A DNA stretch of 33,802 bases from Candidatus Nitrosopumilus sp. (GTDB taxonomy: Archaea > Thermoproteota > Nitrososphaeria > Nitrososphaerales > Nitrosopumilaceae), in the NCBI GenBank assembly GCA_029863275.1, contig JAOTVS010000016.1:1-33802 (forward strand), given 5' to 3'. How positions within the stretch are numbered: the stretch's first letter is position 1; every line of letters starts with the position of its first letter. The translations under genes and the position numbers were made by a program. The notes under the pieces were generated by a model that saw nothing but the letters and a program-made list of their open reading frames with translations, made no database searches and was not told the DNA's origin. Below, piece after piece: positions 19,805 through 33,654 of this stretch.

Positions 19805-19808
19805 GTGG

Positions 19809-19882
19809 TGCAGTTACCGGGATTTGAACCCGGGTCACGTACTTGGCAAGCACGAGTACTAACCAGACTGTACTATAACTGC
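19809..19882 (-). tRNA. tRNA-Gly (anticodon GCC)
   Basis: A complete 74-nt cloverleaf on the minus strand: acceptor GCAGTTA/TAACTGC (7 bp) with discriminator A, D-stem GTAC/GTAC with GG in the loop, anticodon stem CGTGC/GTACG (one G-T), loop TTGCCAA with GCC (19845-19847), and T-stem CCGGG/CCCGG with loop TTCAAAT. There is no intron. The next three bases on the transcript are CCA (19806-19808), so CCA may be encoded. The variable loop is only four bases. Confidence 0.97.
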
Positions 19883-30700: not shown

Positions 30701-31840
30701 ATGTCTAAAAAGGCAATTTCCTTTCATAAAAAATTAAAAGGCAAAATCTTCATTGAAAGTAAAATTTCTAAAATAACTGATGAAAATCTTCAGTTAATCT
30801 ATACTCCTGGTGTGGCAGCAGTTTGTAAAGAAATTTTCAATAAACCCGCATCAAGATATGACTTGACCTCAAAAGGAAACAATGTCGCAATTGTAACTGA
30901 TGGTACTAGGATTCTGGGTTTAGGTAACATTGGTCCTGATGCTGCACTACCTGTTATGGAAGGAAAATCCGTTTTGTATAGAAAATATGGGAAAATAAAC
31001 GCATTTCCAATATGTCTAAACACTACAGATAAGAAAAAAATTATTGATACTATCTTGGCAATTGAACCAATGTTTGGAGCAATTAATCTTGAGGATATCG
31101 AATCACCAAAAGTGTTAGACATTTCATATGATCTTTTAAAAAAATTATCTATACCAGTTTTTCATGATGATAGGCATGGAACAGCCGTAGTAGTTTTGGC
31201 TGCTCTTTTAAATTCCCTAACACTTGTTGGAAAAAAGATATCTGAAATTAAAGTGGTTATAGCAGGAGCTGGCTCTGCAGGTTATTGTATAGCAAAATTG
31301 TTGAATTTTTCTGGATGTAAAAATATTATAGTAATTGATTCCAAAGGTGCAATATACAAGCAAAGAAAGATTAACTTAGACAAGTACAAACGACAACTAG
31401 CTGAATTTACAAATCAAAACGAAAAAGGACAACTTTCTGACGTGATAAAACAATCTGATGTCTTTATTGGGGTTTCTGGAATCAAGAATCTACTAAAACC
31501 AAAAATGATTATGACAATGAATGAAAATCCAATTGTTTTTGCCCTTACAAATCCTGATCCCGAGATCGATCCTTTGGTGGCAAAAAAATCAGGTGCGCGA
31601 ATAGTTGCCACTGGAAGTTTCAAGTATGAAAACAAGGTAAACAATGCTTTAGTTTTTCCCTATTTGATGAGGGCAATACTAGATTTGAAAATACAAAGGG
31701 TGACCATGGAAATCCTTTATGCCACAGCAGTTGCAATTGCAAACATTATTCCTAAAAAGAAAATTTCAGAGAAATATATTATTCCTTCAATCAATAACAA
31801 GAATTTACAGAAACAAATTACAAAAGCTTTGATTAAATAA
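30701..31840 (+). CDS. Malic enzyme (NAD(P)-dependent malate dehydrogenase, decarboxylating)
   Basis: Converts malate to pyruvate and CO2, linking the C4 pool to pyruvate. The 379 residues include LIYTPGVAAVCKEIF, IVTDGTRILGLGNIGPDAAL, INLEDIESPKVLDI, PVFHDDRHGTAVVVLAALL (metal and substrate site), the nucleotide loop IAGAGSAGYCIAKLL, and ALTNPDPEIDP followed by ATGSFKYENKVNNALVFPYL. The length is that of the short bacterial/archaeal form without a phosphotransacetylase domain. The frame extends to a TTG at 30686; ATG 30701 is preferred because homologues begin near this helix (KKAISFHKKLKGKI). A box (agtataac) lies about 22 bases before the TTG, so the longer start is not excluded. Confidence 0.93.
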   Translation: MSKKAISFHKKLKGKIFIESKISKITDENLQLIYTPGVAAVCKEIFNKPASRYDLTSKGNNVAIVTDGTRILGLGNIGPDAALPVMEGKSVLYRKYGKINAFPICLNTTDKKKIIDTILAIEPMFGAINLEDIESPKVLDISYDLLKKLSIPVFHDDRHGTAVVVLAALLNSLTLVGKKISEIKVVIAGAGSAGYCIAKLLNFSGCKNIIVIDSKGAIYKQRKINLDKYKRQLAEFTNQNEKGQLSDVIKQSDVFIGVSGIKNLLKPKMIMTMNENPIVFALTNPDPEIDPLVAKKSGARIVATGSFKYENKVNNALVFPYLMRAILDLKIQRVTMEILYATAVAIANIIPKKKISEKYIIPSINNKNLQKQITKALIK

Positions 31841-31904
31841 AACAATTCAGACAATCTTCTCCATTTATCCACCCTTCCAGGATTGCTATTGCTTTTACAG
31901 TCAT
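31833..31904 (-). CDS. Possible 23-aa microprotein with CxxC
   Basis: A 23-codon ORF, ATG at 31904, whose product contains GWINGEDCLNCF with a CxxC pair. It overlaps the malic-enzyme stop by 8 bases in convergent orientation. A minus-strand A-rich box, AATAAAAAGA, is centred about 28 bases before the ATG. It lies downstream of the Cys-rich microprotein in the same direction. It is too short to judge by coding statistics; chance is quite possible. Confidence 0.25.
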   Translation of the reverse strand: MTVKAIAILEGWINGEDCLNCFI

Positions 31905-31943
31905 TAAGAATAGTTTGTGTTTAGAATCTTTTTATTCTTGAAA

Positions 31944-32039
31944 TTACCGCCAACGGTTTTCATGGCAATCACAAACACATCCAGAGTCACAGTTCATTCG
32001 TTTGCAATCGTCGCATGATTTTTCCCTTAGTTGGCTCAT
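31944..32039 (-). CDS. Cys-rich metal-binding microprotein (31 aa)
   Basis: A 31-codon gene, ATG at 32039. Six of its residues are Cys, and a His adjoins the last: C9xxC12, C17, C21xC23xC25-H26, as in metallothionein-like or zinc/copper microproteins. There is no signal peptide, so it is cytoplasmic. TTTAAA is centred about 32 bases upstream on the minus strand. It follows, in the same direction, a Met-rich secreted protein and a copper-storage-type protein, so copper or zinc buffering is likely. The high Cys density makes chance unlikely. Confidence 0.65.
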   Translation of the reverse strand: MSQLREKSCDDCKRMNCDSGCVCDCHENRWR

Positions 32040-32181
32040 TTTTACAGCAATAATGGCACGATTAATCATTTAAAGTGCACGTGGTTTTGAAGCCAACCGT
32101 CGTTTCCAACTAATTTCTTAATCTTTTACTCTTGGGGGATAAAATGAAGACTTTACTCTTGTAGTCAAACTAGGATTTTCA
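32040..32181. other. Intergenic region of the metal island
   Basis: Contains the promoter of the 31-aa gene. It also holds TTTACTCTTG twice in direct orientation (32125-32134 and 32152-32161), 27 bases apart and just downstream of the Met-rich gene. No open frame worth calling. Confidence 0.4.
32069..32074 (-). promoter_or_regulatory. TATA-like box of the 31-aa Cys-rich gene
   Basis: TTTAAA about 32 bases before the ATG at 32039, flanked by GCAC and GTGC arms (a short dyad), predicting a leader of only a few bases. Confidence 0.45.
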
Positions 32182-33231
32182 CTAATTATTCATCTGTTGC
32201 ATATAGGTCTGATTTTGCATCCACTGTTGCATCATCTGTGGATGGTTCATCATGTGGTTCATCATTTGCTGTTGCATTTGAGGATCATTCATCAGGTGGT
32301 TCATCATTGGTTGCATCATGCCACTCATCATACTATGCATGTGTTGTGGATTTTGCATCATCATTCCATGCATTGTCTGCATAGATTGAGGATCATTCAT
32401 CATGTGGTTCATCATATTTTGCATGTGTTGTGGATTTTGCATCATCCATCCAGGGCTTGTAGTGGAAGATTTGTTAGTAGTTGAACTTTGCATGTGTTGT
32501 TCCATCATCATTCCTTGATTCATCATTCCATGACCCATATTATCTTGACACCAAGCACACCCTACACCCATCATACTTTGCTTCATTGAATCTTGCATGA
32601 ATGGGCACCAAGGACAATTCATAGTACTGTTCATCATTATTCCATGATACATTCCATCACTCATCATTGGACCTCCATGGATCATTCCCATCCATTGTTG
32701 ATTTGATTGCATACTTTGCATCATTTGTGGATTCATCATCATGTGACTCATCATTTGCTGTCTAAGTTCTGGATCATTCATAATTGGTCCCATCATGTTC
32801 ATCATCCATTGGTCATTTTGCATCATTTGTGGCATCCAATTATTCATCATGGTTTGCATGTGTTGAGGATTATCTCTCATCCAATCATGCATGTGTTGAG
32901 ACATTTGAGGATGATTAATCATAGCACCCATTACTCCATGCATATGGTTTTGATTTTGTGCTAAAAGTTCAATATCAAAAGTTCCCCAAGCTCTATCTGC
33001 TAATCTCCAATAAGTTAAAGGACTAACACATGCTGGATTTCCACTTGAACCCTTCATCATCAAGATCATGCCATCTCTGCATGTTACTTGTGTCGGATCA
33101 TTCATCATTTGCATTTGATGATTTGGACTCTTGTAAGGAGTCATTTGGGCAAAAACTGATTCAGAAAATAGTGAAAATGAGATCGTGATAATAGATGCCA
33201 TTATGATTCCAATTATTACAGTATTTTTCAA
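32182..33231 (-). CDS. Secreted Met/Gln/His-rich protein, probable copper binder
   Basis: 349 residues. The N-terminal signal peptide has cleavage after SVFA (about residue 28). A small domain at about 50-85 (VTCRDGMILMMKGSSGNPAC then VSPLTYWRLADRAW) is of a kind seen in other exported thaumarchaeal proteins. The rest is low-complexity: by my count about 81 of some 320 mature residues are Met, in degenerate repeats such as NPQHMQNMMNHMMNDPQ. Two CxxC motifs (CPWC, CAWC) sit in the middle near 215 and 233. Met-rich clusters bind Cu(I) in extracytoplasmic copper proteins. The start is TTG, chosen because it gives the signal peptide a positive charge (K2); an ATG at 33201 is the alternative. Confidence 0.8.
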   Translation of the reverse strand: MKNTVIIGIIMASIITISFSLFSESVFAQMTPYKSPNHQMQMMNDPTQVTCRDGMILMMKGSSGNPACVSPLTYWRLADRAWGTFDIELLAQNQNHMHGVMGAMINHPQMSQHMHDWMRDNPQHMQTMMNNWMPQMMQNDQWMMNMMGPIMNDPELRQQMMSHMMMNPQMMQSMQSNQQWMGMIHGGPMMSDGMYHGIMMNSTMNCPWCPFMQDSMKQSMMGVGCAWCQDNMGHGMMNQGMMMEQHMQSSTTNKSSTTSPGWMMQNPQHMQNMMNHMMNDPQSMQTMHGMMMQNPQHMHSMMSGMMQPMMNHLMNDPQMQQQMMNHMMNHPQMMQQWMQNQTYMQQMNN

Positions 33232-33233
33232 TC

Positions 33234-33243
33234 AAAACGTTTT
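33234..33243. promoter_or_regulatory. Palindrome AAAACGTTTT at the predicted start of the Met-rich mRNA
   Basis: A perfect 10-bp palindrome three bases before the TTG start and about 15-25 bases past the TATA-like box, where a metal-responsive repressor could act. No second copy was seen near the other metal genes. Confidence 0.35.
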
Positions 33244-33255
33244 ATTTTTTCAAGG

Positions 33256-33261
33256 TTTAAA
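33256..33261. promoter_or_regulatory. TATA-like box of the Met-rich gene
   Basis: TTTAAA is centred about 27 bases before the TTG at 33231; a leaderless transcript starting at TTG or a roughly 30-nt leader to ATG 33201 would both fit. Confidence 0.5.
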
Positions 33262-33302
33262 CTAGTTGAAGATTTTCAGAATTGATTTTCTATTATTTCA
33301 TA

Positions 33303-33623
33303 CTAGTTTGTATTTCTACATTCCTGGGCACATTTCTTGCAGGATTCTGCACATCTAATACAATCTTTATCATCAGTATGTTTTTCACATTCCATTGCAC
33401 ATTCATTACATATTTTTTCACAAAGGTCAGAAAGCATACTGGAAAATTTACTATTTCTAGACATGAATTGTGAGCAAACTCTACAAATATCAGCACAGTC
33501 ATTGCATGATTTTATACATTGTATCCTGGTTTTTACATCATTATCTTCAAAACATGATGATATACATTTCTCACAATCATTAATACAGGAATTACAAGCG
33601 TCAATACAATTTTGATTTGACAT
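33303..33623 (-). CDS. csp: Cys-rich four-helix-bundle copper-storage-type protein (Csp/DUF326)
   Basis: 106 residues with 20 Cys by my count, arranged in helical CxxxCxxCxxxC patterns: CIDACNSCINDCEKC, CIKSCNDCADICRVC, LCEKICNECAMEC and DCIRCAESCKKCAQEC. This is the layout of copper-storage proteins Csp1/Csp3, in which Cys residues line the core of a four-helix bundle and bind many Cu(I) ions. With no signal peptide it is of the cytosolic Csp3 type. ATAATTTAAT-like sequence (33645-33654) is centred about 26 bases before the ATG. It is the first gene of the minus-strand metal island. Confidence 0.9.
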   Translation of the reverse strand: MSNQNCIDACNSCINDCEKCISSCFEDNDVKTRIQCIKSCNDCADICRVCSQFMSRNSKFSSMLSDLCEKICNECAMECEKHTDDKDCIRCAESCKKCAQECRNTN

Positions 33624-33644: not shown

Positions 33645-33654
33645 AAAATTAAAT
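33645..33654 (-). promoter_or_regulatory. TATA-like box of the copper-storage gene
   Basis: Minus-strand ATTTAATTTT centred about 26 bases before ATG 33623, indicating a leaderless message. Confidence 0.5.

Follow-up and report, generated by a model that had tools for sequence, protein, structure and literature searches.

Near one end of a 33,802-bp contig from a Nitrosopumilaceae genome (G000:C87, one entire contig, referred to here as the window), a gene for a cysteine (Cys)-rich protein of the Csp type (csp) lies beside a gene for an exported, methionine (Met)-rich repeat protein. The pair is read here, with a probability of about 55%, as a module that buffers Cu(I) in two compartments. 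Csp would hold Cu(I) on thiolates within a cytosolic four-helix bundle, the fold being modelled and the metal taken from the family, and the exported protein, outside the membrane, may use the Met thioethers of short amphipathic helices as Cu(I) ligands. Between them, the two proteins would retain copper inside and outside a cell that needs it for ammonia oxidation and has no recognisable CopA exporter, and the module could serve either to supply copper when it is scarce or to protect the cell when there is too much of it. A 31-aa microprotein with six Cys and one histidine (His) would be a separate, family-wide protein that is merely encoded by the next gene.

In ammonia-oxidising archaea (AOA), much of the energy metabolism is copper-based, and the holding and movement of copper are largely unexplained. 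The linkage of csp to a Met-repeat/cupredoxin gene provides two candidate copper carriers, one for each side of the membrane. Both the Met-repeat and the Cys6His microprotein families are widespread in Nitrosopumilaceae, and a copper economy based on buffering becomes a concrete hypothesis given the lack of CopA in most such genomes. The newest elements are the lineage-specific microprotein family, which is not yet modelled, followed by the recurring csp/Met-repeat pair in genomes without CopA.

The csp/Met-repeat pair

A preliminary description of the locus had proposed a Csp-type cytosolic Cys protein, which is borne out by the analysis. The 106-aa product exceeds the cut-off of Pfam DUF326 by 34.2 bits, and its closest PDB sequence is Csp3 of B. 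subtilis (BsCsp3; phmmer E=4.7e-13). The AF2 model is a four-helix bundle (pLDDT 94) whose best fold match in the PDB is Cu(I)-loaded BsCsp3 (6wkt; Foldseek TM 0.93, rmsd 1.0). The core Cys pattern of known Csps is kept, as seen in the invariant Cys columns of alignment A1 and in alignments to 5fig and 6ei0. No export signal is present, and the chain opens with MSNQNCIDACN straight into helix 1. The Csp1 family TIGR04401 scores 43.7 bits, below its curated cut-off of 100 bits. The classical Csp3 mouth motif consists of three His in a loop (PMC10155185), and the window protein is not filed as a classical Csp3 because it has one loop His only. By predicted fold and compartment it is a Csp3 outside the classical subgroup, and by analogy with its family it would store Cu(I).

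The adjacent 349-aa protein had been described as exported, about 25% Met and equipped with two CxxC motifs. This holds, as the protein has a Sec-type signal peptide, 82 Met (25% of the mature chain) and CxxC motifs at residues 206 and 225, to which a Cys pair (51/68) inside a WING-49 domain is added. The WING-49 match (NF058652) reaches 56.5 bits against a curated cut-off of 22; NCBIfam NF058652 names the domain alone. The AF2 model (pLDDT 58) draws the Met repeats as short helices at low-to-moderate confidence and was judged too weak as a query for a fold search. In 30 shuffles of the window, no open reading frame (ORF) of at least 100 aa with 20 Cys or with more than 20% Met appeared. WING-49 ORFs form a large family in G000 (about 20, in 21 places, mostly 190-660 aa), and Nitrosopumilaceae widely have a canonical WING/Met-rich protein of about 300 aa together with divergent, Met-richer relatives.

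At the sequence level, cupredoxin fusions and copper-ATPase, CDF and ArsR neighbours support a link between the Met-rich family and copper. The closest relative of the window protein, encoded in genome G041 (77% identity), carries an additional domain of the plastocyanin type (PF00127 over cut-off); the cupredoxin domain is absent from the window protein and present in the relatives encoded by G041 and G287. A CDF/cation-efflux transporter, ArsR or P-type ATPase gene lies within a few genes of 8 of 18 divergent (non-canonical) Met-rich loci versus 0 of 10 canonical loci, these loci being drawn from the best search matches and not a random sample. Both of the ATPases scanned beside Met-rich relatives exceed the TIGR01511 copper cut-off. 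The window Met-rich protein has no Pfam or NCBIfam match to families of the PcoE/SilE/CopM type, and no description of the Met-repeat family was found in the literature searched. Two further features of the family were recorded. Membrane-anchored Met-repeat proteins with a C-terminal cupredoxin domain (FYCGLPYNPDKLYCDPDHNMM) are encoded at L211:4792-5628 and L056:1851-2813, of which the L211 protein weakly resembles the NosZ C-terminal and nitrosocyanin models. In addition, a Ycf48-like BNR/PSII_BNR repeat protein recurs beside Met-rich genes and CDF, ArsR or copper-ATPase genes (L206:1114-2049, L207:3518-4444, L227:6064-7002 and L230:3057-3995).

The arrangement of the two genes recurs in Nitrosopumilus sp. 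ECS24A2 (G287), which alone shares this close csp subtype with G000 (76% identity). Located 35 bp 3' of csp on the same strand, the partner gene of G287 encodes a 320-aa anchored Met-repeat protein with a terminal cupredoxin domain (PF13473 over cut-off), and no sequence in that genome matches the window repeat better than the repeat of this protein does (76 aa, 72% identity). The flanks differ, with malic enzyme in the window and, in G287, a pst operon for phosphate transport on the upstream side and a DM13 protein on the downstream side. Because the Met repeat is limited to two proteins in each of G000 and G287, the probability of a chance csp/Met-repeat adjacency is estimated at about 0.1-0.5%. 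The partners are not full-length orthologues, and the recurring unit is therefore "csp plus a Met-repeat protein".

The preliminary description had suggested comparing gene order across Nitrososphaerota; in flanks of up to 1.5 kb, the neighbourhood was not conserved, and the csp/Met-repeat order recurred in G287 only. The other csp loci (G067, G141, G427 and Nitrososphaeraceae-type genomes) have no Met-rich neighbour within these flanks, some of which are shortened by contig ends, and a conserved four-gene island was found in none of the relatives examined. In G095, a genome of the same genus, an NDH-2-like gene comes immediately after the malic enzyme gene, with neither csp nor the Met-rich gene there; rather than a family-wide unit, the island is therefore an insertion or a locus prone to loss.

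Copper export genes were also surveyed. In G000, its 9 congeners and G287 (85% complete), no copper-ATPase scored above the TIGR01511 cut-off. Such an ATPase is present in 60 of the 250 family genomes and in 13 of 14 control genomes, and CopA-type matches occur in the other three csp genomes (G067, G141 and G427). The missing CopA would fit a reliance on sequestration but does not prove it.

The Cys6His microprotein and the layout of the locus

The 31-aa peptide with six Cys and a His that had been noted next to the pair belongs to a family with the motif CxDCKRMxCxxGCxCDCH, found in 136 of the 250 Nitrosopumilaceae genomes and in 16 of 22 genera, often in multiple copies. Outside Nitrosopumilaceae it is nearly absent (four marginal matches, E 1e-3 to 1e-2). 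On sequence evidence this is a real protein-coding gene family under purifying selection, because the ratio of nonsynonymous to synonymous substitution rates (dN/dS) is low: the median is 0.05 for ten 36-aa copies, most of them adjoining CBS-domain and purB-like genes, and the window copy compared with its G378 orthologue gives dN 0.04 and dS 0.89. Six Cys and one His are invariant across the aligned copies, a set that suits a metal site, and the microprotein probably binds metal. Neither the 41-aa ORF of the window nor a canonical 36-aa copy has a Pfam or NCBIfam match, including to any metallothionein model. The position next to the csp/Met-rich pair is probably incidental, because the closest orthologues (G378 and G095) adjoin a glyoxalase-like gene elsewhere, not csp; the family as a whole is distributed over Nitrosopumilaceae independently of csp. 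At least two subtypes can be distinguished, CSDCKRMxCQKGCLCDCHQLRDR and CSDCKRxxCxKGCNCDCHWEP, with examples at L190:1486-1596 (G287:C3), L260:3100-3210 (G000:C23), L261:2178-2288 (G041:C96) and many other loci. Many canonical copies adjoin CBS-domain, universal-stress and purB-like genes.

The analysis confirmed three consecutive minus-strand genes (csp, the Met-rich gene and the microprotein gene; Table 1). A possible fourth, a 23-aa CxxC peptide, was rejected on the grounds listed in the table, the malic enzyme stop that it overlaps being at 31840. A 41-aa reading of the microprotein was also rejected, since the TATA-like box would then lie only a few nt from its start; the box and the ATG of the 31-aa reading are kept in two relatives (G378 and G095), which favours that start. 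Each main gene had been credited with its own TATA-like box, and TTTAA-type boxes do stand at the tabulated distances from the three start codons, although in AT-rich DNA of 34% GC such matches are suggestive only. Their spacing is compatible with leaderless promoters. For the copper-responsive promoter motif of Nitrososphaera viennensis (PMC7785015), only matches with 3-4 mismatches were obtained, at the window-wide background rate.

The csp start codon is 179 bp from the contig end, and the upstream neighbourhood of csp is outside the window. The genome is 98.95% complete with 0.34% contamination. Contamination is an unlikely origin for the contig because of this low value and because the contig carries archaeal-type genes, which we take to be uS9/uL13-like and exosome-like.

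Table 1. Features of the window, with the evidence for each.
Feature	Position	Strand	Evidence
csp, Csp3-type protein, 106 aa, 20 Cys, 1 His, ATG start	33303..33623	-	DUF326, BsCsp3 phmmer, AF2/Foldseek
Exported WING-49/Met-rich protein, 349 aa, TTG start, signal peptide residues 1-29	32182..33231	-	ORF, WING-49 profile, 77% G041 relative
WING-49 domain, residues 36-83, conserved Cys51/Cys68	32983..33126	-	Profile match; invariant columns in alignment A2
C-terminal Met-helix repeats, residues 263-347	32191..32445	-	72% identity over 76 aa with csp-adjacent G287 Met protein
Cys6His microprotein, 31 aa, MSQLREKSCDDCKRMNCDSGCVCDCHENRWR	31944..32039	-	Family in 136/250 Nitrosopumilaceae genomes; dN/dS; kept start and TATA-like box
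TATA-like box TTTAATTT, -30 of csp	33646..33653	-	AT-rich sequence, weak on its own
TATA-like box TTTAAACC, -30 of Met-rich gene	33254..33261	-	Motif position
TATA-like box TTTAAATG, -35 of 31-aa microprotein ATG	32067..32074	-	Also present in G378 and G095
23-aa CxxC ORF, judged spurious	31833..31904	-	Malic enzyme stop overlap; no box upstream; no family match
tRNA-Gly (gcc)	19806-19882	-	Sole tRNA found in window

Origin of csp and competing explanations

Among Nitrosopumilaceae, csp is present in 5 of 250 genomes; within the same order it is common in a second AOA family (f3), and named AOA matches beyond Nitrosopumilaceae include Nitrosocosmicus. The gain of csp has been placed in the ancestor of Nitrososphaerales (PMC7554672), and the Csp of N. 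viennensis is upregulated under copper limitation (PMC7785015). In a Csp tree built from a short alignment with few columns and containing 32 open forks, the window protein clusters with those of ECS24A2 (76-77% identity) and G427, apart from the f3 Csps, and the Csps of G067 and G141 are nested in an f3 subclade. This suggests separate acquisitions of csp. Descent of the window gene from an f3-family csp was rejected on this tree, which separates the two despite its few columns and open forks. Viral carriage was considered as well, and viral contigs gave no match to exact-peptide patterns, which reach close relatives only. Bacterial plasmids often carry csp, but at less than 60% identity. Also observed was a subclade of Csps that combine about 16-22% Met with about 20 Cys and lack the classical His motif of the loop (L062-L065, L075, L082, L002 and L003); its members come from AOA family f3 and from G067 and G141, both of them Nitrosopumilaceae genomes.

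Several observations weigh against a two-compartment copper module. The pairing is known from two genomes, of different genera, and its Met-rich partners are dissimilar, being secreted with WING-49 in the window and anchored with a cupredoxin domain in G287. The genome of the 77% Met-rich relative, G041, lacks csp, and the canonical paralogue of about 300 aa has a conserved neighbourhood without metal genes. The CDF and ArsR neighbours would be compatible with Zn, Cd or other metals as well, and the alpha3-alpha4 loop of the window Csp offers a single His (KHTDDKDC, versus KHDHDHC in BsCsp3). The genes may accordingly be coincidental neighbours, with a horizontally acquired csp having landed by Met-rich and microprotein genes without any shared function. 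This is rather unlikely, although the rarity of csp in the family, the intact malic enzyme/NDH-2-like junction of G095, the csp loci with no Met-rich neighbour and the possibility that each window gene has its own promoter would all agree with it. The same csp/Met-repeat order in G287, in an unrelated setting and with a repeat held by two proteins of that genome only, speaks against coincidence.

The identity of the metal and the function of the exported protein can also be questioned. Buffering or detoxification of other soft or divalent metals (Zn, Cd, Ag or Hg), or of metals generally, by the Met-rich and Cys-rich proteins would accommodate the CDF and ArsR genes near Met-rich relatives, and Cys/His microproteins are often zinc binders. 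It is nevertheless improbable, as the cupredoxin fusions, the TIGR01511 copper ATPases by Met-rich relatives and the Csp fold all indicate copper. Still less probable is an oxidant scavenger or surface protein, with Met as oxidisable padding and WING-49 as an attachment module. The number of WING-49 ORFs in G000, the conserved non-metal neighbourhood of the canonical paralogue and the low confidence of much of the AF2 model are in keeping with such a role, but the divergent paralogues are fused to copper domains and have metal-transport genes as neighbours.

Cu(I) buffering by the csp/Met-rich pair remains the preferred reading. The preliminary description had joined the microproteins to a common copper buffer; the part concerning csp and the Met-rich gene is supported by the fold, the cupredoxin fusions and the recurrence in G287, and the three- or four-gene unit is not supported, the closest microprotein orthologues being located elsewhere. 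A wider proposal, which appears unlikely, is that Nitrosopumilaceae without CopA handle copper by sequestration and not export, with a horizontally gained csp coupled to exported Met-repeat/cupredoxin proteins, and with the lineage-specific microprotein, found in about half or more of the family and strongly constrained by purifying selection, serving to carry or buffer Cu(I) in the manner of a metallothionein.

Relation to known systems

The microprotein resembles metallothioneins and small zinc microproteins in its size (31 aa), its ligands (6 Cys and 1 His) and the lack of a large hydrophobic core, but it matches no known family and its motif is essentially confined to Nitrosopumilaceae. 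The Met-rich protein shares with bacterial PcoE, SilE and CopM an exported, Met/His-rich, flexible or helical design of the metal-sponge kind, and is unlike them in having WING-49 and CxxC motifs and in belonging to a Nitrosopumilaceae family. With other WING-49 proteins (NF058652) it has the domain in common; the Met-rich helical repeats and cupredoxin fusions of its family set it apart.

Like the Csp3 proteins (BsCsp3 5fig/6wkt, MtCsp3 and SlCsp3; PMC5171941), the window Csp is predicted to be a cytosolic four-helix bundle with 20 Cys on the Csp pattern, and it is 36% identical to BsCsp3. It differs from the classical members in its one loop His and in belonging to an AOA subclade that is separate from the remaining AOA Csps. 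The Csp of N. viennensis (NVIE_028200) and the Nitrososphaerales csp genes (PMC7785015, PMC7554672) likewise represent Csp within an ammonia-oxidising archaeon, but the window csp falls in a different subclade (about 45% identity to f3-family Csps in the genomes searched), is rare in Nitrosopumilaceae and is paired with a Met-repeat gene.

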